From the NCBI GenBank assembly GCA_903821875.1, contig CAIJMU010000057.1, positions 1 through 64,000 of the forward strand: DNA of 64,000 bases. Direction: 5' to 3'. Below the pieces are notes generated by a model. The model worked only from the letters and a program-made list of their open reading frames with translations, did no database searches and was not told where the DNA came from. Shown here in pieces: positions 1-41,001 of the stretch. The stretch comes from an uncultured Spirochaetota bacterium (GTDB lineage: Bacteria; Spirochaetota; Spirochaetia; Treponematales; Rectinemataceae). Position numbers and translations under genes: made by a program. Positions within the stretch are counted from its first letter, which is position 1, and each line of letters starts with the position of its first letter.

Positions 1-490
1 CGGCCTGGCCGGAGGCGGGCTTTTCACCAGCTTCATCGCTGCCACGCCCACGATCATCGTGTGCTGCCGCCGGAGCAGCGGCCGGAGCTGCGGTTGATCC
101 ATGCTCTTCAGATGCTCCGGCTTTGGCGCTGGGAGCGTCGTCGCTGCGAGCCGAAGGTTCGGCTTGGCCAGAGGCAGATTTGTCACCAGCTTCGCCGCTG
201 CCACGCCCACGATCCTCGTGTGCTGCCATCGGAGCGGCGGTTGATCCATGCTCATCGGATGCTCCGGCATTGGCGCTGGGGGCGTCGTCGCTTCGAGCTA
301 CGGGCTCGGCCTGGCTAGTGGCGGGCATTTCACCAGCTTCATCGCTGCCACGCCCACGATCCTCGTGTGCTGCCGCCGGAACAGCAGCCGGAGCGGCGGT
401 TGATCCATGCTCATCCGAAGCGCCGGCTTTGGCGCTGGGAGCGTCGTCGCTGCGAGCTACAGGCTCGGCCTGGCCAGAGACGTTCTTGCC
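1..490 (-). repeat. Coding tandem repeat, units of 159 and 147 bp
   Basis: Units start at 1, 160, 307 and 466 on the plus strand, so periods are 159, 147 and 159 bases (53, 49 and 53 residues). The 12-base difference is the loss of a four-residue Ala/Pro block. Copies are nearly identical, and the array continues beyond the left edge. Confidence 0.85.
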
Positions 491-1573
491 ACCCGCTTCG
501 TCGTCGCCCTTCCTGAGGGTGGCGGGGTTGTCTGAATCTACCGTGCCTGGGTCATTGCCGTGCCCACGATCCTCGTTTATAGAGGCCTGAGGAACGAAGA
601 TAAGCGGCTCGCCTGAACCAGGTGGCACTCCAAATGCAGCTGGCTCGCTTGAAGCTTGCGCTTCAAAGGAAGCTGGTGCCTCACCTGCAGTCGACGATTC
701 ACTTGCAGTCGACGGCTCTCGCGAGACAGGCACTTCGAAAGGTGCTGGCGACGCGCCTGATATCGGCTGAGCACTTGCCGTCGGTGGTTCCTTCGGAGTC
801 GGCGGCTCAGCAGTATCAGGCAGCACGCTGACAGCAGAAGGCTCTCTTGAGGCCGCAGGTTCTCTGGATGTAGGAGGCTCGCTTGTGTCGGCTGGTACAG
901 TGTCAGAAGGCTGATCCTGTGTCGTCGCTGTCTTGACTGGTGCTGCTGGTGCCAAGGGCTCTTTCGGGGTCGAATCAGCCGCTGCTGTTCGCATGTGGGT
1001 CGCCTGCGCAAACAATCCAGTCGGCACATGGCTCACCCTCGCCAAGGCTACCGGGATCAAGTCTGGTACCGGTGTTGGAGGTATCCCTCCTATGGACTCA
1101 GGAAGCGGTGCAGAGGAGGTGGCTCTCGCCTCAAAGCCGGGGCTCGTCGACGGAAAAGCTACAGGAGTTTCTCCGGCATGAGACATCTGCCTGATATCCG
1201 GAGCCCAGGACGAAGGCTCTATAGAACCAATTGCTTCGAGTGGCCTGCCTGGCGCAAGTCCCTGTGGTGCCCACACCGCTCCTGCACGCCCGGAATCGCC
1301 ATCAGTCGCCTGGTCCCTGTGCCTGAAGGAGAATTCGGAGCCTGCTGCGAGTTCCTCGTTCCGGCTTGCCAGGAGTTCGGCGGCCAGCTTCGCCTTCCGT
1401 TCGCTCTCCCGTGGGCCGGCCAGAGAGCCCGAATCGTGGATGCCTTCGAGGCTCATCGGCTTCGCGTGCTCAAGGGCGGAAAGGTCCACCTTGTCGGTCG
1501 AAGCCGCTTTTCCAGAGACGCCGGTGGCTTTGGCGGCAATGTCTTTTTTGTCAACGGTGGCCTCATCGCTCAT
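1..1573 (-). CDS. Large repetitive low-complexity protein, N-terminal part (probable type I secretion cargo), cut by window edge
   Basis: The minus-strand frame starting ATG at 1573 is open for 524 codons to the window edge, so the 3' part is missing. A GGGGG ribosome site lies 5 bases before the ATG. The first 200 residues or so are charged and Ala/Ser-rich, then the chain becomes Pro/Ala/Glu/Ser-rich and, below position 490, consists of tandem 49-53 residue repeats with the core AEPVARSDDAPSAKAGAS. No signal peptide and no membrane segment are visible, which fits export without N-terminal cleavage. It lies 27 bases after hlyD in the same direction and closes the secretion operon as far as visible, so I infer it is the cargo, perhaps a giant adhesin. 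Calcium-binding RTX nonapeptides or a C-terminal signal would lie outside the window. I do not recognise the family. Confidence 0.7.
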   Translation of the reverse strand, partial: MSDEATVDKKDIAAKATGVSGKAASTDKVDLSALEHAKPMSLEGIHDSGSLAGPRESERKAKLAAELLASRNEELAAGSEFSFRHRDQATDGDSGRAGAVWAPQGLAPGRPLEAIGSIEPSSWAPDIRQMSHAGETPVAFPSTSPGFEARATSSAPLPESIGGIPPTPVPDLIPVALARVSHVPTGLFAQATHMRTAAADSTPKEPLAPAAPVKTATTQDQPSDTVPADTSEPPTSREPAASREPSAVSVLPDTAEPPTPKEPPTASAQPISGASPAPFEVPVSREPSTASESSTAGEAPASFEAQASSEPAAFGVPPGSGEPLIFVPQASINEDRGHGNDPGTVDSDNPATLRKGDDEAGGKNVSGQAEPVARSDDAPSAKAGASDEHGSTAAPAAVPAAAHEDRGRGSDEAGEMPATSQAEPVARSDDAPSANAGASDEHGSTAAPMAAHEDRGRGSGEAGDKSASGQAEPSARSDDAPSAKAGASEEHGSTAAPAAAPAAAHDDRGRGSDEAGEKPASGQA

Positions 1574-1600: not shown

Positions 1601-2920
1601 TCATCGTTCCCGGAATGCTTCCTGTGCCGAAGCGAAGATGGGTTTCAGGATGTATTGCATTATCGTCCGTTCGCCCGTCACGATTTCTGCGGTCAGGACC
1701 ATGCCGGGGATCAAGACAAGGGGCTCGGCCTTGGCAAGTTCGCGTCCTTCTACCGTCGCGATCGAGCGGTAGTAGGGAGCGCCATCGTTTCCGGTCAAGG
1801 TTGATGCCGAAACCTCGCTGATCCTTCCCTTGAAACCGCCGAAGCGGTCGAAGGGATAGGCCGAGATCTTGAGCCTCACACGCAGGCCCGGCTGGATGGC
1901 CCCGATGTCTTTCGGTGATACGCGGATCTCGGCCCGGTAGCCCTTTTCCTTCGGAACGATGGAGGCGATGGTTGTACCGGATCTCACAACCTCCCCCTTG
2001 CCCGCCACTGCGAGTCCGAGGATGTAGCCATCGATGGGCGACCGCAGCTCAAGGGAACCGGCGCCATGCAGGAGATTCTTCTCCGTCTCATCGAGCTGGG
2101 CGAGGCGGACGTTGACGGCTGCGAGCTCATCAGAATAGCGATTGACCTGTTCGGCATGGTACTCCGTTCTTCGTGCATCGATTTCCGCAAGTTCCTGCAA
2201 GGTTTTCGAGCGAACCGACGGTATGCCCTTCACCTCCGCTTCGATGTTCGCCACTTCCCGCTCCACGGCTATGACCTGCGTCCTCGGCATGGTGCCTCGC
2301 TCTGCCAGGCTGCTGCGGATGGCGAGGTCTTCCTTGGCCAGCGTGAGTTGACGACCGGCTGCCGCGGTACGCGCATCGAGAGAGTCTAATTCCGATCTTT
2401 TCTGGGCAGCCTGGATCCTGAGGATCGTTTCCTTGGATGTAGTCGCCTGGAGCTCGGATTCATAGAGGCGTTTCTGGTCAGCCACAGCCAGGGATATTTC
2501 TCCCAATTGCGAGAAGTTGGCTCGCTTGCCGCTGAGCAGTGCGTTCAGCTTGATGCGCTGGGACTGGAGTGATATGCGTTCGGTCCGGCTTTGGGCAAGG
2601 GCCGTGTTGGTATCGACAGGGTCGAAGACCAGGAGGATGTCACCCGAGCTGACCTCCGAACCCTCCCGCACGAGGACCTGGGCTACGACTCCGCCGGTCG
2701 GATGCTGGACCCGTGCAGCCTCCACGTTGCCGCCGATCAGGCCCGGAGCCTGTGCAACCTCTTCTACGACCGCGAAGGAAGCCCAGATCAGGAAAAGGAT
2801 GACAGCGAGAATTCCGAAGGCTATCGCCAAGCCAGCCAGCGGCGGAGATTCGAGCTCGTTGAGAAGCGTCGATCTCTCAAGGAGCGAACGCTGGCTTCCC
2901 TCCCTTCGTCCAGGTTTCAT
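1601..2920 (-). CDS. HlyD-family membrane fusion protein of type I secretion system
   Basis: This 439-residue periplasmic adaptor would link the inner-membrane ABC exporter to TolC. It has a short cytoplasmic N-terminus (residues 1-27), one membrane helix (about 28-50), a biotinyl-lipoyl half near 75-100 (HPTGGVVAQVLVREGSEV), a long coiled-coil hairpin (about 105-270), the second lipoyl half (SPIDGYILGLAV, about 290-310) and a C-terminal beta domain ending in the family-typical IPGMVLTAEIVTGERTI. Its ATG overlaps the stop of the upstream ABC gene by four bases, so translation is probably coupled. Length is normal for LapC/HlyD-type adaptors. Confidence 0.93.
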   Translation of the reverse strand: MKPGRREGSQRSLLERSTLLNELESPPLAGLAIAFGILAVILFLIWASFAVVEEVAQAPGLIGGNVEAARVQHPTGGVVAQVLVREGSEVSSGDILLVFDPVDTNTALAQSRTERISLQSQRIKLNALLSGKRANFSQLGEISLAVADQKRLYESELQATTSKETILRIQAAQKRSELDSLDARTAAAGRQLTLAKEDLAIRSSLAERGTMPRTQVIAVEREVANIEAEVKGIPSVRSKTLQELAEIDARRTEYHAEQVNRYSDELAAVNVRLAQLDETEKNLLHGAGSLELRSPIDGYILGLAVAGKGEVVRSGTTIASIVPKEKGYRAEIRVSPKDIGAIQPGLRVRLKISAYPFDRFGGFKGRISEVSASTLTGNDGAPYYRSIATVEGRELAKAEPLVLIPGMVLTAEIVTGERTIMQYILKPIFASAQEAFRER

Positions 2921-4992
2921 GATGCCCGCCTCTTCGCTTCGATTTCGGGGGTCGGTCGATCGACCGTGGTGGCCCTCCCCCCGTCCAGCCTGAGTCCTTC
3001 GTCGGCAAGGGCCGAGAAGAATCCGTCATTCGTCATAAGTATGATGGTATCTCCATCCTCCCGCCGTTGCGTGACGATTGAGGCCACCGCCTCGCGTGAC
3101 GAAGGCGGGATTCCGAGCTCGGGTCCGTCGATGATGAGAGTCGAGGACTTCCGGGAGAAGGCGCGCGCCAGGGTGATAAGGCGGCCGATGTCGTCGGGCA
3201 GGGTATCGACGTCCTTCCGGGAAAGACTCGTCATGAGATCCCAGCCCCTCGTCGCAAGAAGTGCCAGAAGGCCGAGTTCTTCGGCCAGCGCGGTGATTTC
3301 CATGTCCTGGGCCTCCGCTGCTCCCAGCCTGATGTTGCCGAGCACAGTCTCCGGGAATAGCGGCGCCGCTGTCGGCGCGTACGCGAGGCTTTGCCTGAGC
3401 AGCGCGGGATCGATCTGGAGGATATTCTGGCCTCCGAGGGTGATGCGGCCGGATTGCGGACGATACAGTCCCAAGGCGAGCTTGGCGATCGTGGTCTTTC
3501 CCGAGCCGGCGTGTCCGCCTATCGCGAGGATGGAGCCGGACCGTGCGAAGAAATCGATTTCCTGCAAGGCCGGGTAGCCCTCTGAGCCGTACCTGAAAAA
3601 TACCTCGTGGAAGCCAAGGTCCCCTCCCGGCTTGGTGCCGAGCGGACGTGGAGCGAGACTCGGCAGCTCGAGGGGCAGGGACAGGAAGCGCTTGATCTGG
3701 TCAACGCTTTTCGAAACTCCGTCCAGTTGCGTTATTACGACGAATGCAGACCTCGCTGGCTCGAGCACGCGCCAGACCAGAAGCATGGCAGCCACGAGCG
3801 CTTCGGGCCGCGCGCGTTCGGCGAAGACATCCAATATGCCGAAGTAGAGCGTGGCCAGGCCCCCGAGAGAGACAGCGAGGGAGGACAGGGAGGAAATCAT
3901 CCCATTCACCCGCTGGAGTTCGTAGCTTGAAAGCGCTGCAGTCCGCGAGGCGCGGGAGAAGCGCTCGAGCCAGGATCCGCGGGCCGCGCCCGAGAGCTGG
4001 GACTTCGCAGCGACGATCCGGGCGAAGAGATCGTGTCGCTCCCCGTCCTCGCGGGCAAAATTGGCCTGCGCCTTCTTCACGATCGGGTAGAAGAGCGCGG
4101 AGGCCAGCGCAAAGAACAGGAGGGCCAGGAGGGGGGCGATGAGGAGCCGGGGCCCGGCACCCGCCAGCCAGAATATGTTGAGTATGAGGAAGGGGATGTC
4201 GAAGATGGCCGCAAAAGCCGGTCCGCCGATGAAATCAGAGATGGTCTCGAAATCGCGGACACGACGGATCTGGGAATCGAGCGGCGCGGATTCCGTAAAG
4301 GAGGTCTGGAAAGAGAGCAGCCTCCGGAAGATTTCTGCCCCTATGGTCTGGCCGAAGCGGGCGCTCGAATAGTCGAGGAGAGACCCTCGGAGGAAGCGAA
4401 GCCCGGCATCGGCTACCAGGTAGAGCGTGGCTCCGAAGGCGAGCGAGACCACAAATCGCCCCTCGGAGGTGGCAGCCAGCCTTCCGTACATCGCCGTCAT
4501 CAGGAGGGGATAGAGCAACGAGAGGACGCCGAGCGCGATGGAAAATACCGATCCAATTATCAGATATTTCCTGAACCTGCCGGCAACGGACCAGAACCAG
4601 TCCGCTCCAGGCTTTCGCTCGTTTCCCTCATCGAGGGCCTGGAACCGGAAGGCGCGGACCCTTCGGCTTCCGGTTTTCATCCTTCTGTAGCGTGCGCTGC
4701 GGCCGTCGAAGGCGAAAAGGGAATCATCGTTCCTTCTCAGGACAACGAGGAAGTTGCCGTCGCCTTCCGCTATGAGACAGGGAAGGTTTACCTCTCGGAG
4801 GGAGCGGAGGCTCGTTTTCGCGGAACGGTGGCTGAAGCCGAGGGCTGCCATCGCATTCAGCATGTCCGGCAAGGATTTGGCCCTGTCGATTTCCAGACCT
4901 CGAAGGCTGGCCTCCGCGCCGCCACCGGCGCCAAGCGCATCGAGCAGAGGTACGAGGCAAGCCTGGAGGGCCTTGATATCAGGCTCACGCAT
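2917..4992 (-). CDS. Type I secretion ABC half-exporter with C39-like domain; degenerate ATPase motifs
   Basis: This 691-residue protein has a peptidase-like N-terminal domain without a plausible catalytic cysteine (about 1-115), a six-helix exporter domain (about 140-430, with the T1SS-typical RRVRDFETISDFIGG) and a nucleotide-binding domain (about 455-680). Walker A is intact (GGHAGSGKTT, K499). The Q-loop glutamine is replaced (YAPT), the LSGGQ signature is TLPDD (597-601), Walker B keeps D622 but has Gly at 623 where the catalytic Glu belongs, and the switch His is Asn655. It overlaps the hemerythrin gene by 8 bases and hlyD by 4. I infer it pairs with the other half-exporter of the operon. 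It can probably bind ATP, but strong hydrolysis is doubtful. Confidence 0.9.
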   Translation of the reverse strand: MREPDIKALQACLVPLLDALGAGGGAEASLRGLEIDRAKSLPDMLNAMAALGFSHRSAKTSLRSLREVNLPCLIAEGDGNFLVVLRRNDDSLFAFDGRSARYRRMKTGSRRVRAFRFQALDEGNERKPGADWFWSVAGRFRKYLIIGSVFSIALGVLSLLYPLLMTAMYGRLAATSEGRFVVSLAFGATLYLVADAGLRFLRGSLLDYSSARFGQTIGAEIFRRLLSFQTSFTESAPLDSQIRRVRDFETISDFIGGPAFAAIFDIPFLILNIFWLAGAGPRLLIAPLLALLFFALASALFYPIVKKAQANFAREDGERHDLFARIVAAKSQLSGAARGSWLERFSRASRTAALSSYELQRVNGMISSLSSLAVSLGGLATLYFGILDVFAERARPEALVAAMLLVWRVLEPARSAFVVITQLDGVSKSVDQIKRFLSLPLELPSLAPRPLGTKPGGDLGFHEVFFRYGSEGYPALQEIDFFARSGSILAIGGHAGSGKTTIAKLALGLYRPQSGRITLGGQNILQIDPALLRQSLAYAPTAAPLFPETVLGNIRLGAAEAQDMEITALAEELGLLALLATRGWDLMTSLSRKDVDTLPDDIGRLITLARAFSRKSSTLIIDGPELGIPPSSREAVASIVTQRREDGDTIILMTNDGFFSALADEGLRLDGGRATTVDRPTPEIEAKRRAS

Positions 4993-6343
4993 TGACCACC
5001 CCTTCCTTTCCGACCGCGGATCCGAAGGTCTCGATATCCGTGCCGTTGGTATGAGTCACCCACCATGCAGCGAGCTTGTTGCGCAGGCCGGAGCTGACGT
5101 CGAGGCGGCCCCCGGAGGCATCGGCCCTCAGCTCGGCGAAGGCCAAGGCAAGATTCCTGTGTTCCTCCCTGTGCCGCATGATGAGACGGGGCGCAATGCC
5201 GGAATCAGCCAGGCGAAGGATGGAATCCTCCCGCTCGAAATGTTCTTTTGCGAAGCCTGCAAGGCCTTCGATCGCCTTTTCGAGCGTGAGTGCCTCGCTT
5301 TGCGCCTTCCGCCCCGACGCGCCGGTGGCAGCCAGGGTCCTGAAGGAAAGATCGATGAAGTGCTGATGGTCTTCGTCGATGGCCGCTATGCCTGTCTTTC
5401 GTATGAGGTGATAGAGTTCGGAGGATTCGCGGGCGGCTTCCATTGCCGTAGCAATCCAGTTGCCCCTCCTGAAGCTGTCATAGTCCACCTGGCCGATGTG
5501 CACGGTGAGCCAGCAGAGGAGCTCCAGCGCCACGCCCTTGAGTCCCTGGCCTCCACTGACCTCACCTTCCTTTTCACAGGAGTTCATCGTCCGGTCGAGG
5601 GTGGCCACAAACTCCTTGTGCAGCTTGCGCTGAAGGGCGGTGTTCTTCGCAGCATGGAGATCGAGCAACTCTTCCTCGTGGGCGAAATGCCGGGTGGTGG
5701 AATCCCGGAGCGCGATGAGGGAGGGAAGACAATCTCCAGGCTTCCCTTCCCTGAGGTCGTGTGCGGCCGCAATGATGTCTTCTACGATCTGGCGGTGCTC
5801 GAGGTCGAGCTCGTCGATGCCCGTGGTACGCACGATGTCCGCAAGGTCGTTCCAGCTGCGGGCTTCCGCCAGGGAAGGAGCGAGCCCCTTGATCTCGAAG
5901 GTCTCACGGTCGGATTCCGCGATATGGTCGACAATCCAGGCGAAGATGGAGCCCCGCAGGTCGGTGGGCACCGAGGTCCTGCCCGCGGCGAACTCGGCCG
6001 AGAACCGCTGGAGGTCTCCAACGATGCGTCTATGCTCCCTTCGCTGCCGCTCGAGTCCCGGGGCGTGGAGGCGCTCCACCAGAACTTCCTCACGATCAAA
6101 ATGGTAGACTGTGTAGCTCATCAGTTGCTCGATGAGCCCCGCCTGTGCCTCAAGCATCCCCTCATCGATGCCCTTGAGGGCCGAAGCGTCCAATTGGAGG
6201 TTAAGGTCGATGGCGTAGCGAAGGAGGACACGATGGTCCGAATCGACGGCATCGATGCCCGTGTCGAGCAGTATGGCGTCAAGATCACGCTCGCTTCGGG
6301 CAGCGAGCAGCGCCCATCGTATCCACGCTCCTTCGTCCATCAT
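4985..6343 (-). CDS. Triple-domain hemerythrin encoded inside the type I secretion operon
   Basis: This 452-residue soluble protein contains three bacteriohemerythrin domains. Domain 1 has H37, H81, E85, H104, H140 and D145 but Gln100 where the HxxxH pair needs its first His. Domain 2 has H183, H219, E223, H242, H282 and D287 but Gln238 at the same position. Domain 3 has the complete seven-ligand set (H326, H368, E372, H391, H395, H431, D436). Hemerythrin domains bind O2 at a di-iron centre, so domain 3 should bind O2 and the others may be structural or altered. The ATG at 6343 overlaps the stop of the upstream ABC gene (ATGATGA) and follows GAGG; longer in-frame starts lie inside that gene. 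There is no signal peptide or output domain. Position in the operon suggests O2 sensing or delivery linked to secretion, which is inference. Confidence 0.92.
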   Translation of the reverse strand: MMDEGAWIRWALLAARSERDLDAILLDTGIDAVDSDHRVLLRYAIDLNLQLDASALKGIDEGMLEAQAGLIEQLMSYTVYHFDREEVLVERLHAPGLERQRREHRRIVGDLQRFSAEFAAGRTSVPTDLRGSIFAWIVDHIAESDRETFEIKGLAPSLAEARSWNDLADIVRTTGIDELDLEHRQIVEDIIAAAHDLREGKPGDCLPSLIALRDSTTRHFAHEEELLDLHAAKNTALQRKLHKEFVATLDRTMNSCEKEGEVSGGQGLKGVALELLCWLTVHIGQVDYDSFRRGNWIATAMEAARESSELYHLIRKTGIAAIDEDHQHFIDLSFRTLAATGASGRKAQSEALTLEKAIEGLAGFAKEHFEREDSILRLADSGIAPRLIMRHREEHRNLALAFAELRADASGGRLDVSSGLRNKLAAWWVTHTNGTDIETFGSAVGKEGVVNA

Positions 6344-8064
6344 GTACCCGCCACCTCGAGCATCGGCCTGAGGGCCTCCCTGACGACGATCCTTCCCTCG
6401 AAGGGCTCTCCGACCTTGCCGCAAATTCCCACGAATTCCTTTCGTCGTGATGCGACAACAAGGGTTGTACCCTCCGAAAGCCTTCCGAGCAGGTCCAGGA
6501 CCGCCCTTCGTCCTTCCTCGTCGAGGCCCGCGTCGGCACGGTTCCACACGAGGAGCCTGGGCCGCCTCGCGATAGACCGGGCGATGCAGAGGCGCTGGAC
6601 GAGGGCGGCGGGCAGGAGCTCGGCACGGGGGTCGAGCGGGGTGTCATAGCCCCGCGGGAGCCTCGCGATCGGCTTTTCGAGGCCCAGTAGTGCAGCTGCG
6701 TCCAGGGCAGAGTCCCGGAGCGCCGGATTGAATCCTGTCAGGTTATCGAGGACGGTTCCCGGCAGGAGTTCCCCCTTCGGAGGCACATAGGCGATAACGC
6801 CATTGCTGCTCGACTCCCAGCGGTCGAGTGGATAGACATCGAGGATGACGCTGCCTGAATCCGGGCGCCTGAGACCGGCCGCGACAAAGCAGAGGCCCGA
6901 GGCCCAGCCCTGACCATCGTCGAGCAGCCCGAGGGAGTCTCCGGGACGAAGGACAAAGCTTGTAGGGCCGAAGCCATCGGGAGTCCCGGCCCGCGATGCC
7001 ACCTCCGCAAACTCGAGCCTGCTTTCAAGGGCAGTGGGCAGGGGCGGCCTGGCCTTTACCTCCGGGCCTGCGATTCCCAGGGCCTTCAGCGCATGTTCTG
7101 TCGCAATGCCGGTTTCGGCGCGCTGGTAGGCGATCCTCACGAAGCCCTGGGCCGAGCCCATGGCGCGCGAGGCGAGCAGAAGCACGGTGGAGAGGGCTCC
7201 GACCGTGAGCGCACCGCGGGCAACCGCCGAGGCACCAAGGGCCAGGACGGCGAAACCCATGGCCGCGGAAATAAAGCGCTGGAACTCGGCGGTGACCCGG
7301 ACCCCGCGTCTGGCGGAATACGCCGCATCGGCCTGGACAGATTGGGTTCGCTCGAAGCGCATGGCCAGAATGGGTTCGAGGGCCTGGGCCTTGACGAATC
7401 CGATGTTTCCGAGCGAGCGCGATATCTCCTCGATCCTCTCCTGCTCGATTGCCGAAAGCCTGCGATGCTTTTCCGCAGAGCGCGAGACCTCGAAAGCAGA
7501 CACAATGAGCTGTATCAGTACGCCTGCGACGGGAATCAGGGCGAGCGGCCCTCCGATGAGCCAGAGCACAGCGAGGTAGAGCAGTGCGAAGGGTGATTCG
7601 GCCAGTGCCGGCAAGGCCTGGGCGATCATGGACGCAACAATCCGTCCCGCCCCCAGCCTCTCGAGGTGCTCCCCTGGACCTATGTCAGCCACCGTCTCGC
7701 CTTCGGCTGACAGCAGTGCAGTGACAGCCTTGATCTCGTAGGTCGAGGACACGCGGGCGACTGCCCAGGCGGAGATTCTTCCCCTCGCCACCGAGACCAG
7801 GGCTTCAATGCACAGGGCCAGGGCACAGCCGCCGAAAAGCCAGACCAGGGTCGATGTGGAACGGTAGGCTACGATACGGTCATAGACCTGGACCATGGAA
7901 AGGGGCAGGGCGAGGCCGAGCACACCGATGGCGAGGGAAGCCAGGGCTATGCCCCTGGTCGTCGCAGGCGCGATCGCGGCTGATATCTCCTTGCCCATAA
8001 GCCGAAGGAGGGGTTTCGCGCCCACGAGCGTGATCGCAGTGCGGAGAAAGGGGCGGTATTTCAT
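6340..8064 (-). CDS. Type I secretion ABC half-exporter with fully degenerate nucleotide-binding domain
   Basis: This 574-residue exporter-fold protein has membrane helices at about 35-310 and an NBD-like domain at about 345-560. Every ATPase motif is lost: the Walker A Lys aligns with Ala388 (DDGQGWASG), the Q-loop Gln with Pro429, the signature reads LLPAA (483-487), Walker B reads LLVWNR (Asn508, Arg509 in place of Asp-Glu) and the switch His is Ser539. The reading frame is otherwise clean and tightly packed with its neighbours (ATGA-type overlaps at both ends), so it looks like a maintained pseudo-ATPase rather than a decaying gene. It lacks the C39-like N-terminal domain found in its partner. 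Likely role: non-hydrolytic half of a heterodimeric T1SS exporter. Confidence 0.88.
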   Translation of the reverse strand: MKYRPFLRTAITLVGAKPLLRLMGKEISAAIAPATTRGIALASLAIGVLGLALPLSMVQVYDRIVAYRSTSTLVWLFGGCALALCIEALVSVARGRISAWAVARVSSTYEIKAVTALLSAEGETVADIGPGEHLERLGAGRIVASMIAQALPALAESPFALLYLAVLWLIGGPLALIPVAGVLIQLIVSAFEVSRSAEKHRRLSAIEQERIEEISRSLGNIGFVKAQALEPILAMRFERTQSVQADAAYSARRGVRVTAEFQRFISAAMGFAVLALGASAVARGALTVGALSTVLLLASRAMGSAQGFVRIAYQRAETGIATEHALKALGIAGPEVKARPPLPTALESRLEFAEVASRAGTPDGFGPTSFVLRPGDSLGLLDDGQGWASGLCFVAAGLRRPDSGSVILDVYPLDRWESSSNGVIAYVPPKGELLPGTVLDNLTGFNPALRDSALDAAALLGLEKPIARLPRGYDTPLDPRAELLPAALVQRLCIARSIARRPRLLVWNRADAGLDEEGRRAVLDLLGRLSEGTTLVVASRRKEFVGICGKVGEPFEGRIVVREALRPMLEVAGT

Positions 8065-9317
8065 GGGCTCCCCGGGATCGATCCTGGCGGAAAGCCGCTC
8101 TGCCGGAGAAGGACGATCCTGGTGCGGGCAGCCTGGGCCTCCGCTGAAAGAAGGGCCAGGTCGCGGCCCATGAGGGCCGAGCGCGCATCGAGAACCTCGG
8201 CTATCGCGGAAGCTCCGGCTTTGAAGGAAGCTTCAACTGCCGCAAGATAGGCTGCCGCGTCATCGCGGGCGTCGCGGAACCGTGCGACGCGGACTTCGGC
8301 TTGCCCGGCATCCACCGCGGCCCTCTCGGCTTCGCGCTTCTTTTCTCCCAGCTCGCTGGCGTTTCGAATGCGCGCAGCCTCGAACCCGGCCTTTGCTGCC
8401 TCCAAGGCGCCAGGGTTGTTCAGGGCGAGGGTGAGATTTCCTCCTGCAGAGATTCCGAGGGGCGGGGTCGCAAAGGGACTGAGGCTGGCAGAAAGCGAAA
8501 CTCCGGCTGTCATCGAAAATGCCGCGCCTGCCCTGTCGAGCGATGCCTGGGCAAGGGCCGCTTCAGCCGCAGCGCTCGCGGCCCAGGGGCCTGGATCAGA
8601 TGGTCCGGAGGCGGCAAGAACGAGGTCCGCGAAACCAGTTGTGGGTACAAGCTGCCTGCCGAGGAGGGCCATCACGATCCCTTCCTTACGGGCCAGATCG
8701 GAGCTGCTGTCTTCGAGCCCGATCTGGGCCGCTGAGAGCGGCTGTTTCGCGGCGAGCACGGCGATGGAGCTTCCCGCACCTGCCTTGCGATCCGATTCGG
8801 CATTCCTCACCAGCTCCTGGAAGGTTGCGACTCCCCGGGCCTCGATTTCCATGCGCCGCCGCGCCTCGACAAGGTCGAGGCAGGATTGGAGGAAGAAGGC
8901 GACCCTATCGAGTTCGGTCAGAGCCAGCCGCGCCTCTGCCCTCCTCTCTTCAGCCGTGGACAGGGCTGCCTTTGATCCGTCGGGAAAACCCAGGGATCCC
9001 GCGACCGAAACCCCGATGGAGCTGCCCTGGAGCAGTGCGGTCGCATCACCGAAGCCGTAGCTTCCACTCGCACCCGTGGCAGTCGCCGAGAGAGCCGGAG
9101 TCGAGGCAGCTGCCAGTCCCAGCCGACCCGAAAGTAGGGTCGAGGCCAACTCCGCGCGGGCCGCTGCGATCCCCGAATCACGCGAGAGGAACTCCGAAAC
9201 GAGGCTCCGTGCCGACTCCTCGGCCATGCCGCGCGTCAGCGCTGCGAAACCCAGGAAAACGCAGGCGAGGGTTCTGGCTCGCAGGGAGAAATCCGGAATT
9301 GCTCTCATGGTCATCAT
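8061..9317 (-). CDS. TolC-family outer membrane factor of the type I secretion system
   Basis: About 418 residues. It starts with a signal peptide (RTLACVFLGFAALTRGMAEE) followed by two related halves rich in long Ala/Leu/Glu helices, as in TolC-type channel-tunnel proteins (for example AAAYLAAVEASFKAGASAIAEVLDARSALM near the end). The frame extends upstream to 9476, but that part is not protein-like. ATG codons at 9317, 9314 and 9308 are the sensible starts; none has a strong ribosome site. It is first in the operon, and its stop overlaps the next ABC gene by four bases. Expected role: outer-membrane exit duct for the cargo at the end of the operon. Confidence 0.85.
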   Translation of the reverse strand: MMTMRAIPDFSLRARTLACVFLGFAALTRGMAEESARSLVSEFLSRDSGIAAARAELASTLLSGRLGLAAASTPALSATATGASGSYGFGDATALLQGSSIGVSVAGSLGFPDGSKAALSTAEERRAEARLALTELDRVAFFLQSCLDLVEARRRMEIEARGVATFQELVRNAESDRKAGAGSSIAVLAAKQPLSAAQIGLEDSSSDLARKEGIVMALLGRQLVPTTGFADLVLAASGPSDPGPWAASAAAEAALAQASLDRAGAAFSMTAGVSLSASLSPFATPPLGISAGGNLTLALNNPGALEAAKAGFEAARIRNASELGEKKREAERAAVDAGQAEVRVARFRDARDDAAAYLAAVEASFKAGASAIAEVLDARSALMGRDLALLSAEAQAARTRIVLLRQSGFPPGSIPGSP

Positions 9318-19466: not shown

Positions 19467-22400
19467 GTGAAGGTCTTGGTTCTGCTTCGGCGAGTGGCGG
19501 AAATCGTGATCGTGGCAGCGGTGTACCTGATAGCCGCGCTCATCGGCAACGCCTTCCTCCCTCCAATCGAGGACAGCTACGCGCTCTGGCTTCCAGCGGG
19601 CCTCGGCATCGCCATGGTGCTGGTTTTCGGAAGGACTGCCCTCATCGGCGTCCTGTTCGGAGACACGCTCTTCAGAATAAGCGCCTTCGGCAGCATGGCC
19701 GCGCTCGCCAACCCCGAAATGCTTGGCCTGGCGCTGACCATCGGCGCCATCCGGACCCTCGAAACCTGGGGCAGTGCCTGGGCTATCAGGCGCCTGTCTA
19801 CTGTCCTCCCCCCCCAAGGTACCGGTGAGATCCTCCGCAGCAACGGCGCAGTTGCCCTCATCATCCTGGCGAGCGCTGCCCTGGGATCGGTGATGCTGTA
19901 CATCACGGGCATCGAAGCAGGGTCGGAGCTGCTCCCGATCATCGGACGCTGGTGGCTCTCTGACTTTTCAGGAACCATGTTGATAGTTCCCGCCATTGTC
20001 AGCCTGGCCAGGGGCCGGAAGAAAAGGCCCGAGGTCGAATCCTTCCCCTGGATCCTTTCGTCCTTCATTGTGGGCGCCACACTCTTCATCTTCTTTCAAG
20101 CTTCCGCCATCACCAGACAGGGCATCAAAGACGAATTCCATCGTGACTTCCGCGAGTCCCTGCAGGTCTCCAAGGACACGATCCAGAAGGGCTTCTGGTC
20201 GGTCAACGCCCTCGCCGCCTATGCAACGAGCCAGCCGCAGGCATCGCCAGGGGAGTTCGGGGACTATGCCAGGACCCTGATCGGCGACAACGCGTCCACG
20301 CTGAACCTCTCGTGGATTCCCCGCGTATCCGACGCCGAGCGCTCCTCCTACGAGAGGTCCATCCAGTCCCGGGGCTTCCTCGATGCCCGGATAACGGAAC
20401 TGAACCTGGACGGTAGTGCCGTTCCAGCCCCGAAGCGTGCGGAATACTTTCCCTCGACCCTCTTCGAACCCAAGGCCGAGGAGGCAGCACGGACGGGCTG
20501 GGACACGGCAAGCAGTGCGCCACGCCGGGAGGCCATCCTCAAGACCCGCGATTCAGGCAAGGCCACACTCACCCCACCCCTGCCTTTCCAGTTCGACAGG
20601 AAGGGGCGCTCCGGGGTCCTTCTCATGGAAGCCGTCTATCGAAGAGGGATGCCGCAAGCCACAGTAGAGGATCGAAGGCTCGCCCTCATTGGCGTCGTTT
20701 CAGGCGCCTTCATGGTCGGGGACTGGCTGGAAGAGGCCCTGGCCAGCATCGAGAGTCACGACATCGAGATCGAGGCCTTCGATGTCACCTCTCCTGACTC
20801 GCCCCTCTTCCTCGGCTTCCACCACTCCATCTCGGGTCCGTCATCGCCACTGGCCAGCGCCGCACTTCGTCCTGGCAGCCTCGAGACGGGTCTCTACGAG
20901 TCGGCGACCTGGGAGGTCGGGCAGCGGTCCTGGTTGTTCATCGCGCGGCCGGGACCGGCCTTCGCGCGGGACGGAAGGAACTGGGTCTCCTGGCTCACCC
21001 TCCTGGTCGGCTTCGCCTTCGCGGGAAGCTTCCTCATCTTCCTGTCCAATCGCCAGAAAGCCAACCTCGCAGTCGCCCATTCCGAGGAGGCTGTCCGCCA
21101 GCTTGAGACACGGAATTCCGCAATCATCGAGAACGCCCCGGACGGCATCGCCCTCATCGATGCAAAGGGCTTGGTCATCTACGGAAGCCCCTCCGCCTTC
21201 AGGATGTTCGACCTCCAGCCTGGGGAAATCCTGGGCAAGCAGGCGCTCCAGGGCATACACCCCGAGGACGCGTCCCGTGTCCTCGAGCTTTTCCGTGCCC
21301 TGGTCGCCGATCCGGCGAGACCCTTCACTGCGGAGTACCGCTACCGCCACCGCTACGGCGGCTACAGCTGGATCGAGGGAAGCTTCACGAACCTCCTGGC
21401 CACCCCCGGGGTCAAGGCAATTGTGAACAATTTCCACGACATCAGCGACCGCAGGGCAGCGCAGCTCGAGCTTGAGACACTGAACAGGACCCTCGAGCAG
21501 CGTGTGGAGGAACGCACCTCAGAGCTCAGGAAGAGCGAGGCAGAGCTCCGCGAGAACCGTGACCGGATGGCCGAAGCGAACATCGCCCTCGAGCGGGCAG
21601 GACACATGAAGGACGAGTTCCTCGCCAACATGAGCCACGAGATCCGCACCCCGATGAATGCGATCATCGGGCTGTCATCTTTGGCCCTCAAGACGGGAAT
21701 GACACGGAAGCAGCAGGACTACGTGTCGAAGGTGCACAATGCGGGCCTCACCCTCCTGGGCGTCATCAACGACATCCTCGATTTCTCGAAAATCGAGGCG
21801 GGGGAGCTCACGATCGAGAAGGTCGGCTTCGATCTCGACGAGGTGCTCACGAACCTGGGCACGATGGTCTCGCAGAAGGTCATGGAAAAGGAGCTCGAGT
21901 TCCTCATCGACGCGCCCCAGGGAATCCCCCGCGCCTGGATGGGAGACCCCCTCCGCCTCGGCCAGGTCCTCCTCAACCTCCTGTCAAACGCCGTGAAGTT
22001 CACCGATGCCGGTGAGGTCCGGCTCTCGGTGGAGCTCGTCGAGCGAGTGGGTCCGCGTTCCAAGCTCCTCTTCGCGGTGGAGGATACGGGCATCGGCATG
22101 GATCCACAGCAGGTGACCCGCCTCTTCCAGGCCTTTTCGCAGGCAGACAGCTCGACGACCAGGAAGTACGGAGGTACCGGTCTCGGCCTCAGCATCAGCA
22201 AGAAACTCGTGGAGCTGATGGGCGGGCAGATCTGGGTCGACAGCGCAGCCGGAAAGGGAAGCAAGTTCCGCTTTACAATCTGGCTCGATGAGGCTGGGGA
22301 GGGAATGGATCTGGATATATCCCTTCCAGCCGCCTTCGATGGCAGACGGGTCCTGGTCGTGGATGACAATGCGGCAGCCAGGAACATCCACCGGAGCATC

Positions 22401-23831
22401 CTCGAAGAGCTGCGCTTCCGGGTCGAGACCGCGGCCTCTGCCGAAGCCGGGCTTGAGCTGCTTGCGGAGGCCGACGCGAGCGATCCCTATGCCCTCGTGC
22501 TGATTGACCTCCATATGCCGGGGGGACTGGATGGCGTCACCGCGACGAGGCGCTTGAAGCAGGAGCTCGGGCTCCGAAAGCCTCCGCTGGTATTCATTGC
22601 TACCGGGAGCTCGGGCGAGGAACAGCGGCCCCAGGCTGCCGAGGCAGGGGCCGAGGAGTACCTCGTAAAGCCGCTCACTTCCACTGTCCTCAGGAGGGCG
22701 CTGAAGCGGCACTTCGGGGCTCATGACAGCCTGAACGGTCAGGACGAAACCACAGCCACCGCGACCAGCCACACGCGGAAGCGAGACTTCGGCGGAGCGA
22801 GGATCCTCCTGGTCGAGGACAATGACATCAACAGGCAAATCGCCACCGAGCTCCTCCAGTCTGTCGGTGTCGCAGTTTCTGTGGCGGTGGACGGGCTCGA
22901 GGCAGTGGAGGCGGTCATGCAGGCTGACACCCCCTTTGACGCCGTGCTGATGGACATCCAGATGCCACTGATGGATGGCTATTCCGCAGCCCGCAGCCTC
23001 CGATCCGACAGCCGCTTCGAGGCGCTTCCGATCATAGCGATGACAGCCTATGCGATGGAGACCGACAAGCGGAGGGTACTCGAGGCCGGGATGAATGACC
23101 ACATCGCCAAGCCCATCGATCCCGAGGTCCTCTTCGCGACCCTCGAGCGCTTTGTCAGCGTACGTGAGCCCGGGGACAGTCAGGGAAGCCCGGGTACGAG
23201 GGAGGGCTTTCCCCAGGAAAACCAGGATTCCTTGGTAGCCTCCCTGCCCCATCTGTCCACCATCGACTTTCGGGACGGACTTGCGCGGGTGGGAGGAAAG
23301 ACCGGTTTTTTCCTTGAGCTCCTCGCGCGCTTCAGGGAAGACCACCGGGACGACGGCAACCGGATCGCCGCTGCCCTCGAAGGGGGGGATGCCGAGACGG
23401 CGGAGCTCCTCGCCCACGGCCTCAAGGGGGTAGCCGGAAACATAGGGGCAACTGCCATCCAGAAGGCCACCTCCGGGCTCGAGGACATCCTCAGGCATGG
23501 TGGGGATCCGCTGGCAAGGGAAGCTGCCCTCGTGGAGCTTCGGGCAGCGCTTGCCGCCACCCTGGTTGAGCTTGAACCCCTCGTCCTGGCACGATTCCAG
23601 GCCGAACAGGATATCAGGCTGACCAGCCCTGAAAGAATGGCGGCCATCCTCGAGGAGCTGGGACGGCTCGTGGAGAACTTCGACCTCGAAGCGGTGAATT
23701 ACTTCAAGGAAATGCGCGCAGAGCTTCTCGGAGGCTTCGGTGAGGAGCGGCTTGCACAACTCGAAGCCAGGCTTACCGCCTACGAGTACGAGGAAGCGGC
23801 CCGGTGGCTGCGAAGCGAAACCCCGTCATAG
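19467..23831 (+). CDS. Hybrid histidine kinase: MASE1-CHASE-PAS-HisKA-HATPase-REC-REC-Hpt
   Basis: 1454 residues. N-terminal MASE1-type membrane domain (about 5-195), periplasmic CHASE domain (about 205-435), another membrane helix (about 505-525), PAS (about 545-655, [20 protein letters not shown]), coiled coil, HisKA with phospho-acceptor H724 (NMSHEIRTP), HATPase ([26 protein letters not shown]), REC1 with D1014, REC2 with D1163 and a C-terminal Hpt domain with H1317 (AHGLKG). This is a complete BarA/ArcB-like phosphorelay in one chain, needing an external REC partner for output. CHASE domains sense small extracellular ligands; the ligand here is unknown. The start is GTG 19467 with GGGAGGA at ideal distance. 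Confidence 0.95.
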
Positions 23832-36991: not shown

Positions 36992-39115
36992 CTACTTGCA
37001 CTCCTCGACCGCCGGTCCCGCGAACTGGGATTCGTGGAGCTCCGCATAGAAGCCGCACTTCGCGATCAGCTCTTCGTGCGTGCCCTGCTCCACGATCGAG
37101 CCCGAGTCCATGACAAGTATGAGTTCCGCGTCGCGGATTGTCGACAGCCTGTGGGCGATCACGAAGCTCGTCCGTCCCTCCATCAGTGTGGTCATGGCCT
37201 TCCTGATGAGGACCTCGGTGCGCGTATCCACCGAGCTCGTAGCCTCGTCGAGGATGAGGATGGCTGGGTCGGCCAGGATGGCCCTCGCGATCGTGAGGAG
37301 CTGGCGCTGGCCCTGGGAGATGTTGCCTGCCTCCTCGTCGAGGACCGTGTCATAGCCCAGGGGAAGGGCACGGATGAAGTGGTCGGCGTAGGCTGCCTTG
37401 GCAGCGCTGTGGATATCCTTTTCGGTCGCGCCTTCGCGGCCGTAGGCAATGTTGTCGCGGATGGTGCCGGTGAAGAGCCAGGTGTCCTGGAGCACCATGC
37501 CGAAGAGACCCCGGAGGCCACGCCGCGGCATCTCGCGGATATCCCTGCCGTCGATCAGGACCGCGCCGGCATCGATTTCACGGAAGCGCATGAGGAGGTT
37601 GACCAGGGTGGTCTTGCCCGCTCCCGTGGGACCGACGATGGCGATCATGTGGCCCGGGCGGGCATCGAGGGACAGGCCCTCGATGAGTGGCTTGTCGGCC
37701 ACGTAGCGGAAGGACAGGCCCTCCACCCTGACATGGCCGGACACCGGCGAAGGAAGCGCCGCCCCTGGCCTGTCAGAGGCCTCCTCCGCCTCATCGAGGA
37801 CCTCGAAGACGCGCTCGGCACAGGCCAGGGTCGACTGGATCACGTTGGCGATGTTCGCTGTCTGGGCGATGGGCTGGGCGAAGGAGCGCGAGTACTGGAT
37901 GAAGGCGGTGATGCCTCCAATTGTGAGCTTTCCCTTGGTGAGCCACAGGCCGCCCACGACCGATATGAGCACATAGCCGAGGTTGCCTATGAAGTTCATG
38001 AGGGGGAACATCACCCCCGATATGAACTGGGCGCGCGACGAAGCGCTCCGGAGACGATCGTTGATGTCCCTGAACTTCTGGAGCGATCGCCTTTCGAGGC
38101 TGTAGGCCCGCACGATGGCGTGGCCCGAGTACATCTCCTCGATGTGGCCGGACAGGTCCCCGAGCTCCTTCTGCTGCTCCTTGAAGTATTTCTGCGAGCG
38201 CTTGGCAATAAGGACGGTGGCGACGACGTAGAGCGGGAGCGTCGCCAGCACGATGGCGGTGAGGAGGGGGCTGATCGTCAGCATCATGATGATGAAGCCC
38301 ACGAGCTGGATGACCGAGGTGATGGCCTGCACGATGCTCTGCTGGAGGGTCGTCGAGATGGTGTCGATGTCGTTGGTCACGCGCGACAGGAGGTCGCCGT
38401 GGGGCCGGCTGTCGAGGTAGGCCAGGGGGAGGCGGTCGATCTTGGACTGGGCCTCGCGCCTGAGCTTCGAGACCGTGTCCTGGGCGACCGTGGACATCAC
38501 CCACTGGGTAATGAACATGAAGACCGAGGACAGGGCGTAGAGGGCAAGGAGGAAAAGGAGTATGGAACCAATTGCTGCATAATCGATCCTGCCGCCGGTC
38601 TCGCGTATCGCACGCACCGCATCGGCCATCTGCTCGGGGGTGAAACCGGGCTTTGCCCCGGGAGCCGCGGGCATCTTCCCGGACAGGGCGGCGAGCTTCT
38701 CCACGATGGCGGCGCGCTCGTTGTCGTCCCTGGCCTCGGCCAGGGGCGTGATCCCGAGCTGCGACAGCGTGGGGCCAGCCTTCTCGGAGAGCTTTCCGAT
38801 GCGGTCGAGGGTCATGCGGGCGATGAAGGCGTCCTTGAGCTTGTCCATGGCATGGCCCTGGATCTTGGGCGACACGACCTGGAAGGACATCGAGGCTATG
38901 GCCAGGAGGACGACAGCCACAAGGCGCGGCGCGTGGGGACGGAGGTAGCCCAGGAGGCGTTTGAACGTCGCGCCGAAATCCTTGGGCTTCTGCCCGCCAG
39001 CGCCCATGTGCCCCATGGGGCCGCCAAATCCGGGACCGCCACCATCACGACGCGCCCCGGGTCCCACGACCGGGCCGGGGGATCCGGAGGAACGCTTCGA
39101 ACTGTTGTCGCTCAC
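36992..39115 (-). CDS. Heterodimeric ABC exporter subunit, catalytically competent half (TM288-like)
   Basis: 707 residues: a Gly/Pro-rich cytoplasmic N-terminus (1-45), exporter membrane domain (about 60-400) and NBD (about 450-690) with Walker A GPTGAGKTT, signature ISQGQRQ, Walker B LILDEATSSVD and switch His IAHRLS. Between the first two helices is an extracytoplasmic insertion of about 90 residues (100-185) not present in standard MsbA-type exporters. It overlaps its partner gene by four bases. Probably a multidrug or lipid exporter of the TM287/288 kind. Confidence 0.92.
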   Translation of the reverse strand: MSDNSSKRSSGSPGPVVGPGARRDGGGPGFGGPMGHMGAGGQKPKDFGATFKRLLGYLRPHAPRLVAVVLLAIASMSFQVVSPKIQGHAMDKLKDAFIARMTLDRIGKLSEKAGPTLSQLGITPLAEARDDNERAAIVEKLAALSGKMPAAPGAKPGFTPEQMADAVRAIRETGGRIDYAAIGSILLFLLALYALSSVFMFITQWVMSTVAQDTVSKLRREAQSKIDRLPLAYLDSRPHGDLLSRVTNDIDTISTTLQQSIVQAITSVIQLVGFIIMMLTISPLLTAIVLATLPLYVVATVLIAKRSQKYFKEQQKELGDLSGHIEEMYSGHAIVRAYSLERRSLQKFRDINDRLRSASSRAQFISGVMFPLMNFIGNLGYVLISVVGGLWLTKGKLTIGGITAFIQYSRSFAQPIAQTANIANVIQSTLACAERVFEVLDEAEEASDRPGAALPSPVSGHVRVEGLSFRYVADKPLIEGLSLDARPGHMIAIVGPTGAGKTTLVNLLMRFREIDAGAVLIDGRDIREMPRRGLRGLFGMVLQDTWLFTGTIRDNIAYGREGATEKDIHSAAKAAYADHFIRALPLGYDTVLDEEAGNISQGQRQLLTIARAILADPAILILDEATSSVDTRTEVLIRKAMTTLMEGRTSFVIAHRLSTIRDAELILVMDSGSIVEQGTHEELIAKCGFYAELHESQFAGPAVEECK

Positions 39116-40842
39116 GCCAGCCTCTCTTCCGACAGCTGCGAGGCGGCTATCTCATGGTACACGGGACAGGAGGCAAGGAGCTCGCGATGCGTACCTGTCC
39201 CCACGATCTGGCCATCCTCCATCACGATGATTCGATCGGCATCCATGACCGTTCCCACGCGCTGGGCTACCACGATGACGGTCGCCTTTCCCGTCACCTC
39301 CTTCAACCGCGCGCGGAGCCGCGAGTCGGTGCGGAAGTCGAGGGCCGAGAAGCAGTCGTCGAAGAGGTAGATTTCCGGTTTCCGGGCGATGGCCCGGGCG
39401 ATGGAGAGGCGCTGTTTCTGTCCACCGGAGAGGTCGAGACCGCCCTGGGCTACCTCGTGCTCATAGCCGCCCTCGATGGTATCGATGAACTCTGTGGCCT
39501 GGGCGATCTCCGAGGCCTTCCGCACGGCGTCCTGGTCGACACCCTCGGTGCCGAGGCGGACATTGTCAGCGATGGACATCGAAAAGAGGATGGGCTTCTG
39601 CGGAACGTAGCCGATGCGGGCGCGGAGCCCGTCCTGGGCCATCTCCCGGACGTCGATGCCGTCCACGAGGACCTGCCCCGAGTCAGCGTCATAGAAACGG
39701 GCGACGAGCTTGGCTATCGTCGACTTGCCCGAACCGGTGGAACCGATTATGGCCGTCACCTCCCCGGGCGCGGCCCGGAAGGAGACACCCTCGATGGCTG
39801 CCTGCTCCGCACCGTGGTAGCGGAAGGTCACATTCCGGAACTCTACGGTCGCCCGGTCGGCCGCCCCAGGGGCCTTCGGCACCGCGGGATCGGAGATGGT
39901 CGGCTCCGTGCCGAGGACCTCGTCGATGCGGACAGCCGCAGCCTGGGCCCTCGGCACCATGATGAACATCATGGCGAACATCATGAAGGACATGAGGATC
40001 ATGAAGGAGTACTGGATGAAGGCCATGAGGGAGCCTATCTCCATCTCGCCCGAGTCGATGCGGATGATGCCGAACCAGAGCAGGGCAAGGCTCGCCGCGC
40101 TCATGATGAACATGATCGAGGGCATCATGACGGCCATGAGCCGGTTGACCTTGATGTAGGTGCTGGTGAGCTCGGCGTTGGCCTCCTCGAAGCGCTGGCG
40201 CTCCCGATCCTCGCGGTTGAAGGCGCGGACGACGCGGACACCCGTGAGGGCCTCGCGGAGGACGAGGTTGATGCGGTCGATCTTGCCCTGGATCGAGCGG
40301 AAGAGGGGCAGGGCCTTCATAAAGACCACTCCGATGAGGATGCCGAGCACCGGTATGACCGCCGCGAGGACCCAGGTGAGGGAGCGGTCCTTGGATAGTG
40401 CCATCACCAGTCCACCGACAGCCATGATCGGCGCGCCGACCATCATGCGGAGGGCCATGAGGGTTACCGTCTGGACCTGTGTGACGTCGTTGGTGCTCCG
40501 CGTGATGAGGGTGGAGGCACCAAAGCGGTCGAACTCGTCGAGGGAGAAGGATTCGACTCGTCCAAAGATCGCTTCGCGGATGGCAGCCCCGAAACCCGCA
40601 CTCGCCTTTGATCCGAGCCAGCTTGCCAGGATGGCGGAAAGGATCGAGGCCCCGGTGACGAGGAGCATCAGGGCTCCCGTCGACAGGATGCGGGTTGTGT
40701 CCCCGTTCATCACGCCCTTGTCGATGATGTCGGCCATCAGCGTCGGCAGGTAGAGGTCTGCGATGGTCTGCCCGAAAACGAGGAGGAGAACGAGGATTAT
40801 TTCAGTTTTCCAGGGCGCCAGGAAACGCGCCAGTTTGAGCAT
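39112..40842 (-). CDS. Heterodimeric ABC exporter subunit with degenerate site (TM287-like)
   Basis: About 576 residues: six-helix exporter domain and NBD with Walker A GSTGSGKST and signature LSGGQKQ, but Walker B reads YLFDDCFSALD with Asp instead of the catalytic Glu, and the switch position is VAQRVG (Gln for His). This is the expected degenerate partner in TM287/288-type heterodimers. ATG 40842 has AAAGGA upstream; the 28 codons before it are not conserved in style. First gene of a four-gene ABC run down to 34910. Confidence 0.92.
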   Translation of the reverse strand: MLKLARFLAPWKTEIILVLLLVFGQTIADLYLPTLMADIIDKGVMNGDTTRILSTGALMLLVTGASILSAILASWLGSKASAGFGAAIREAIFGRVESFSLDEFDRFGASTLITRSTNDVTQVQTVTLMALRMMVGAPIMAVGGLVMALSKDRSLTWVLAAVIPVLGILIGVVFMKALPLFRSIQGKIDRINLVLREALTGVRVVRAFNREDRERQRFEEANAELTSTYIKVNRLMAVMMPSIMFIMSAASLALLWFGIIRIDSGEMEIGSLMAFIQYSFMILMSFMMFAMMFIMVPRAQAAAVRIDEVLGTEPTISDPAVPKAPGAADRATVEFRNVTFRYHGAEQAAIEGVSFRAAPGEVTAIIGSTGSGKSTIAKLVARFYDADSGQVLVDGIDVREMAQDGLRARIGYVPQKPILFSMSIADNVRLGTEGVDQDAVRKASEIAQATEFIDTIEGGYEHEVAQGGLDLSGGQKQRLSIARAIARKPEIYLFDDCFSALDFRTDSRLRARLKEVTGKATVIVVAQRVGTVMDADRIIVMEDGQIVGTGTHRELLASCPVYHEIAASQLSEERLA

Positions 40843-41001
40843 GGAAGGTCCTTTCGCCCAGGTCAGGGCGCGATGGATCCGTCCGGAATCGAGTGCCGCC
40901 CTGCGAGCCCGTGATGCGGATGTCACAGTGCATGATCCGGGCCGGAAGGGTCAAGCTTTGGACCTTGCGCAGGAATGAAGGAAGGTCATAATGGAGCCAT
41001 G

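Follow-up and report, generated by a model that had tools for sequence, protein, structure and literature searches.

A hemerythrin gene within an operon related to type I secretion systems

The window, a 64,000-nucleotide stretch of DNA, comes from an uncultured Spirochaetota bacterium of the family Rectinemataceae (assembly GCA_903821875.1, contig CAIJMU010000057.1, forward strand, positions 1 to 64,000). At its beginning lies an operon of overlapping genes, all on the minus strand and ordered (TolC-like)-ABC1-Hr-ABC2-HlyD-cargo, in which the gene for a protein with three hemerythrin (Hr) domains stands between those of two ATP-binding cassette (ABC) half-exporters and is accompanied by genes related to the remaining components of type I secretion systems (T1SSs). 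The features of the operon are the following.

8061 to 9317, minus strand: TolC-like outer membrane protein (Pfam OEP, 3e-14), with a 4-base overlap with ABC1
6340 to 8064, minus strand: ABC1, an ABC half-exporter of 574 amino acids (aa); ABC_membrane, 1.9e-16; nucleotide-binding domain (NBD) fully degenerate
4985 to 6343, minus strand: triple Hr protein, 452 aa; PF01814 and TIGR02481, three domains
2917 to 4992, minus strand: ABC2, an ABC half-exporter of 691 aa with an N-terminal C39-like region; TIGR03375, 256 bits (cut-off 693)
1601 to 2920, minus strand: HlyD-family periplasmic adaptor, 439 aa; TIGR01843, 316 bits (cut-off 208.65)
1 to 1573, minus strand: presumed cargo, a low-complexity repeat protein truncated by the contig start, assigned by its position after HlyD; no Pfam match

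The start of the TolC-like gene near 9317 was chosen for the signal-like sequence that follows it (the mechanical open reading frame, or ORF, runs from 9476). The Hr ORF (6343..4985, minus strand) encodes its 452 aa without an internal stop and is matched in three stretches by each of two profiles, PF01814 (8.1e-30, 104.3 bits vs a cut-off of 25.3) and TIGR02481 (4.7e-53, 178.6 bits vs 51.75). An earlier note, made from the sequence of this DNA alone, had described three tandem hemerythrin domains between two exporter genes, and this description is borne out, with the gene on the minus strand. It had also reported ATGA-type overlaps; this is correct for the ABC1 stop and the Hr start, which share a 4-base ATGA (6343-6340), but not for the Hr stop and the ABC2 start, which overlap by 8 bases (4992-4985) of another form. 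The G+C content of the operon (0.630) is close to that of the remaining window (0.628).

By homology, the operon is a relative of T1SSs. Its HlyD protein passes the curated T1SS cut-off, with HlyD present in all five loci described below, and the outer membrane duct is represented by a Pfam OEP match in the window's genome and two relatives (G519 and G343). The best family for both ABC2 (256.5 bits) and ABC1 (186.2 bits) is TIGR03375, the LssB type; both proteins lie far under its 693.1-bit cut-off and, by this score test, outside the LssB subfamily.

The gene order is conserved in five distantly related genomes

A search of 392 genomes of the phylum with ABC2, limited to E ≤ 1e-28 and to no more than two scored candidates per genome, recovered the window's genome (G000) and G343 (locus L061). 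A search of 394 genomes of the class with an alignment of these two ABC2 proteins (two candidates scored per genome) added G519 (L098; 4.2e-177), G449 (L099; 5.1e-175) and G429 (L100; 9.6e-117), the next match being at 1.0e-55. The operon is carried by 5 of the 394 genomes in the class search, each from a different family. Order-level searches yielded no extra carrier, returning the known genome each time (1/3 genomes around G343, 1/26 around G519, 1/7 around G449 and 1/390 around G000); the genome sets of the phylum, class and order searches overlap, and their counts are not additive.

As far as the contigs reach, the core order ABC1-Hr-ABC2-HlyD-cargo is found in all five loci. G343 and G519 have the complete set, with the TolC-like gene at the matching position; the G449 contig starts within Hr and continues through ABC2, HlyD and cargo; and in G429 ABC1 is followed by a 393-aa protein that occupies the Hr slot and then by ABC2, HlyD and cargo. 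In G343, G519 and G449, the protein at this position matches PF01814. Conservation of the association between Hr and T1SS genes had been set beforehand as a test of the earlier note, and the association recurred: every locus bearing an ABC2 ortholog (5/5) has Hr or a diverged Hr between ABC1 and ABC2. Pairwise protein identity across the loci is 21-37% for ABC1, 22-41% for ABC2, 15-35% for Hr and 25-38% for HlyD. Because four other genomes share the order at protein identities of 15-41%, a chance arrangement is unlikely.

Searches elsewhere added no further example. A contig scan with the window's Hr protein gave two loci, neither with a match to the window's T1SS proteins in its ORF list; a plasmid tblastn search with the G343 Hr gave no match; and a viral-contig search gave one weak locus. 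Searches with ABC1 and ABC2 within the family returned distant paralogs only, and six further neighbourhoods from family-level ABC searches (L062-L067) held no match to the window's Hr.

The flanking genes of three loci were also noted. The G429 operon is flanked by a STAS-domain protein (L100 5843-6190, minus strand) and a PAS/GAF/SpoIIE phosphatase with a kinase-type ATPase domain (L100 13771-17217, minus strand), which form a partner-switching module adjoining the machine. A GntR regulator is the sole regulatory gene beside the G343 operon, and an MFS-like ORF lies beside that of G000, where no signalling genes were seen.

Both ABC proteins have degenerate nucleotide-binding domains

T1SSs are generally considered to run on their own ABC ATPase, and the most unusual feature of this system, overlooked in the earlier note, is the degeneracy of its NBDs. 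Compared with PrtD (5l22), ABC1 lacks the P-loop; Pro takes the place of the Q-loop Gln, LPAAL that of the LSGGQ signature, Asn-Arg that of the Walker B Asp-Glu and Arg that of the H-loop His. Compared with HlyB and P-glycoprotein, ABC2 has kept Walker A, and its Q-loop Gln is replaced by Thr, LSGGQ by LPDDI and the catalytic Glu by Gly; a MAFFT alignment of nine system ABC proteins (five ABC2, four ABC1) and six control ABCs places Asn at its H-loop His and shows the Walker B Asp retained. Across this alignment, the Q-loop Gln, the signature and the H-loop His are absent from all nine system NBDs, and the catalytic (Walker B) Glu from eight. The Walker A glycine pattern is gone in all four ABC1 proteins, two of which still have the Lys, and in the G343 ABC2 the Walker A Lys is replaced by Thr. 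Directly after the first Gly of Walker A, 5/5 system ABC2 proteins have a His (residue 494 of the window's ABC2), a feature shared by 0/6 control ABCs.

We scored seven diagnostic residues in each NBD. System NBDs retained 0-3 of them (n=9; in the window, 0/7 in ABC1, row L045, and 2/7 in ABC2), compared with 5-7 in controls (n=49; 7 in 29 rows, 6 in 12 and 5 in 8), the control set being the 51 rows scored less L045 and L060, which are system proteins. A T1SS is defined in part by catalytically competent ABC NBDs; with at most three of seven diagnostic residues in 9/9, the system is predicted to lack them. Degenerate-site heterodimeric exporters keep one intact composite ATP site; here, where ABC1 and ABC2 presumably pair, the signature motif is present in 0/9 NBDs.

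The NBDs are conserved like the membrane domains (TMDs): mean identity is 33.6% for the NBD and 31.5% for the TMD of ABC2, and 28.6% and 27.8%, respectively, for ABC1. In a 30-row tree, flagged for long branches and uneven composition, the four ABC1 proteins form one group (100/99) and the five ABC2 proteins another (99/100), the two together being grouped at 90/81, and their branching orders match for the shared genomes. Judged from this tree, ABC1 and ABC2 are each of single origin, and the losses common to all nine NBDs most simply predate the split of the lineages. With the NBDs no less conserved than the TMDs, and with a single origin for each ABC, the degeneracy is not the result of decay.

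An ordinary ABC half-transporter pair also occurs in the window (36995-40926, minus strand). One of its halves has an altered Walker B (FDDC) and H-loop (AQR), the usual single-degenerate pattern, in contrast to the doubly degenerate pair of the operon.

The hemerythrin protein has one complete and two altered di-iron sites

The HxxxH motif of hemerythrin contributes ligands of Fe1. This iron is bound by three His and Fe2 by two, with O2 binding at Fe2 (excerpt of PMC9388753). In the window's protein, the ligand positions are H37, H81, E85, Q100, H104, H140 and D145 in domain 1; H183, H219, E223, Q238, H242, H282 and D287 in domain 2; and H326, H368, E372, H391, H395, H431 and D436 in domain 3, where all seven ligands are present. 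In place of the first His of HxxxH, domain 1 has Gln100 and domain 2 Gln238, in agreement with the earlier note's reading of the three sites.

This pattern is largely conserved. The first HxxxH residue of domain 1 is Gln in 3/3 readable orthologs (G000, G343 and G519); that of domain 2 is Gln in three of four (G000, G519 and G449) and His in G343; and that of domain 3 is His in 4/4, with the complete set H-HxxxE-HxxxH-HxxxxD in each. The repeated, identical change to which the earlier note drew attention need not represent two independent events, because the pattern is common to deeply split lineages. Among 26 distinct hemerythrin rows (loci L001-L029), three belong to the window's Hr, two to a Lachnospiraceae locus (L009) and 21 serve as controls; in every control His occupies this position, assigned by spacing in five (L004, L005, L016, L022 and L029) in which the pattern ends at that His. 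The pattern misread one L009 row, and the other shows Gln; the substitution is thus unusual but not unique to the system. The L009 protein (4025-4855, plus strand) has two hemerythrin domains, the second of which carries the Gln, and no match to the T1SS proteins was found near it. Variation of iron ligands in single-domain Hr proteins has been recorded in general terms (excerpt of PMC4919030).

The G429 slot protein retains several ligands in domain 1, and its domains 2 and 3 are stripped of nearly all. Having lost most ligands, it indicates that O2 binding is not essential in every such machine; judged from this site loss, the feature common to all members is not O2 binding. The Hr proteins are predicted to be soluble, their maximal 19-aa hydropathy (0.5-1.26, vs 2.2-2.7 in ABC2) showing no segment of transmembrane strength.

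The window's genome has 12 PF01814 matches, three of which belong to the operon's Hr. The window also encodes a methyl-accepting chemotaxis protein with HAMP, MCP signal and C-terminal hemerythrin domains (43575-45833, plus strand), an architecture like that of DcrH.

The presumed cargo is a low-complexity chain with a conserved N-terminal motif

Downstream of HlyD lies a gene for a low-complexity protein that is free of Cys in the parts seen. It is acidic in G343, G519, G449 and G429 (25-37% Asp plus Glu) and rich in Ala, Ser and Pro in the window's genome (12-15% Asp plus Glu). An N-terminal motif, [LD][NDK]AKE[FY][GE]x[IV], is common to the four loci other than the window's, is reached by 0 of 2000 shuffles, and is weakly present in the window's cargo. 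That gene is split within its repeats over two contigs, with positions 1-1573 (minus strand) of the window on one and the C-terminal part on the other (G000:C167; L101 3-1013, plus strand). The lack of a complete cargo gene in the five loci suggests that the repeats break assemblies. The neighbouring genes suggest export of the protein, which as a T1SS cargo would be expected to carry a C-terminal or retention-type secretion signal. The earlier note had proposed an adhesin as cargo; a Pfam scan of four cargo sequences from three of the five loci (G449, G343 and two parts of G000) gave no match and no recognisable adhesin, and a cargo of the RTX or immunoglobulin type was rejected.

Comparison with known systems

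The closest likeness is to T1SSs of the LssB/LapB type (TIGR03375 ABC, TIGR01843 HlyD and TolC), with which the operon shares a C39-like N-terminal ABC region, an HlyD protein above cut-off, a TolC-like protein and an adjoining repetitive cargo gene. It differs in having two ABC proteins with degenerate NBDs (256 and 186 bits vs 693), an Hr gene between them and, where scanned, a cargo without a recognised domain. The MARTX T1SS of Vibrio likewise has two ABC exporter proteins (RtxB and RtxE), an adaptor and TolC; there, RtxB and RtxE both appear necessary as ATP-binding proteins, and the available excerpt describes no Hr gene (PMC3034196). Heterodimeric ABC exporters such as TM287/288, TmrAB and TAP are also half-transporter pairs with catalytic losses, but one of their sites stays catalytic (excerpt of PMC7756269), whereas here neither composite site has the signature, the Q-loop Gln or the H-loop His.

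Hr domains do occur in regulatory and transport proteins. CtpD is a name for P1B-5 ATPase transporters with an Hr-like domain. In the sensors DcrH, Bhr-DGC and Bhr-HD-GYP and in these ATPases an Hr domain is coupled to an output; in the ATPases this output is a membrane transporter and the ligand motif is altered (excerpt of PMC9388753). The operon differs from both: its triple-Hr protein is encoded separately, Gln takes the first HxxxH position in domains 1 and 2, and the ABC pair is of the secretion type. Among open-licence PMC papers, our literature search found neither a T1SS with both ABC sites degenerate nor hemerythrin in a T1SS, in accord with the earlier note, which knew of no T1SS with a hemerythrin subunit; PMC11784015 mentions hemerythrin once, in a proteomics row, and the available excerpt of a T1SS review (PMC8277102) does not mention it.

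A proposed conduit with a non-hydrolysing ABC pair

Together, these data favour, with a probability of roughly 0.6, an envelope conduit derived from a T1SS, with a predicted non-hydrolysing ABC pair and with Hr as a dedicated, soluble cytoplasmic subunit. The system may not work like a T1SS, because by sequence it lacks the competent ATPase that defines one. ABC1 and ABC2 would form the inner-membrane part of a duct with HlyD and TolC, a normal ATP cycle not being used for pumping; ATP would be bound at most by ABC2, as a ligand. The triple Hr protein would be a stoichiometric cytoplasmic partner that docks on the NBD face as scaffold and regulator, its domains 1 and 2 serving as structural or tuned sites. 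Where domain 3 is intact, the redox or O2 state of its iron could act on the gate or on how the N-terminal tag of the cargo gains access. Such gating is plausible by analogy in members with a full domain 3, because characterised Hr sensors of bacteria are redox-responsive and the P1B-5 ATPases couple an Hr-like domain to a membrane transporter (excerpt of PMC9388753). Export or display of the disordered chain could be powered by something other than the ABC pair, such as ion trapping of the emerging chain outside, or proton-motive force. The complete scheme, in which a T1SS-descended machine without ATP hydrolysis in either ABC protein uses the triple Hr as an iron/redox- or O2-responsive gate and threads an N-terminally tagged, disordered and mostly acidic polymer through the TolC duct, is more tentative, and we regard it as possible rather than probable.

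Several observations weigh against the proposed conduit or narrow its basis. Walker A is intact in 4/5 ABC2 proteins and the Walker B Asp in 5/5, so some nucleotide chemistry may survive, and the G449 ABC2 keeps its Walker B Glu. No TolC gene adjoins the G429 operon, and the G449 contig is cut before the TolC position. The G429 slot protein has no Pfam match, and its link to Hr is weak (hhalign of the N-terminal half against the Hr profile: probability 87.7, E 3.4e-6). A single-sequence AlphaFold2 model of Hr was unusable (mean pLDDT 46.1). Lastly, the sample comprises only five loci, and in all five the cargo gene is interrupted by a contig end or scaffold gap.

The model put forward in the earlier note, in which a functional T1SS runs on ATP and O2, through hemerythrin, gates the secretion or retention of its adhesin cargo, accords with the conservation of Hr in the operon, with the seven ligands of domain 3 in all four readable orthologs, and with the redox response of characterised Hr sensors and the coupling of an Hr-like domain to transport in P1B-5 ATPases (excerpt of PMC9388753). 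With the NBD motifs gone from both ABC proteins, most ligands lost in G429 and no adhesin domain in the four scanned cargo sequences, we consider it unlikely, and the earlier interpretation as a whole is partly supported. It is similarly improbable that the pair is ATP-driven in an unusual way, through one surviving ABC2 site with non-standard catalytic residues and with Hr as an accessory stabiliser. The remnants in ABC2 listed above would suit this, as would exporters with one degenerate site that run on the other (excerpt of PMC7756269), but none of the four ABC1 proteins has the partner signature motif, the Q-loop and H-loop residues are lost in 9/9, and the G343 ABC2 lacks even the Walker A Lys. 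A shade more doubtful is a machine that exports nothing and serves as a tether across the envelope or as a signalling complex, with the disordered protein fixed in or on the duct and Hr reporting the redox state. It could explain a degenerate ATPase pair, a low-complexity protein with a conserved N-terminal tag, and the SpoIIE and STAS proteins that adjoin the G429 operon; against it stand the full T1SS gene set, TolC included, in three loci, and the surroundings of the G000 operon (an MFS-like ORF, no signalling genes seen) and of the G343 operon (just the GntR regulator).

Two further explanations were rejected. That Hr stores O2 or iron, and is co-transcribed by accident with a machine to which it is unrelated, gains something from the abundance of Hr genes in the window's genome; it is very improbable given the identical slot between ABC1 and ABC2 in 5/5 loci from five families, within overlapping genes, and given that the G429 protein holds this slot despite its lost sites. 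Least credible is a decaying operon in which the NBD losses are pseudogene damage: catalytic residues are indeed lost and the operon is rare in the class search, but long open frames with overlaps persist in distant genomes, the NBDs are as conserved as the TMDs, the ABC1 and ABC2 groups are congruent, and the losses are common to all members.

A duct and cargo gene retained beside two ABC proteins that have lost the Q-loop, the signature, the H-loop and nearly all catalytic Glu offer a direct test of whether protein can pass without ATP hydrolysis, and the conserved Hr between the ABC genes is a concrete candidate for the control of such a duct. Full, Gln-altered and lost di-iron sites form a natural series with which to ask what hemerythrin does beyond O2 carriage. 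The rare, conserved cluster suggests an export gate whose working and control are unlike those of known gates.

Other genes in the window

Farther along the window lie a large hybrid histidine kinase with MASE1, CHASE and PAS domains, two receiver stretches and an Hpt domain (19467-23828, plus strand) and an IS200-like Y1 transposase (PF01797; 56768-57307, minus strand).

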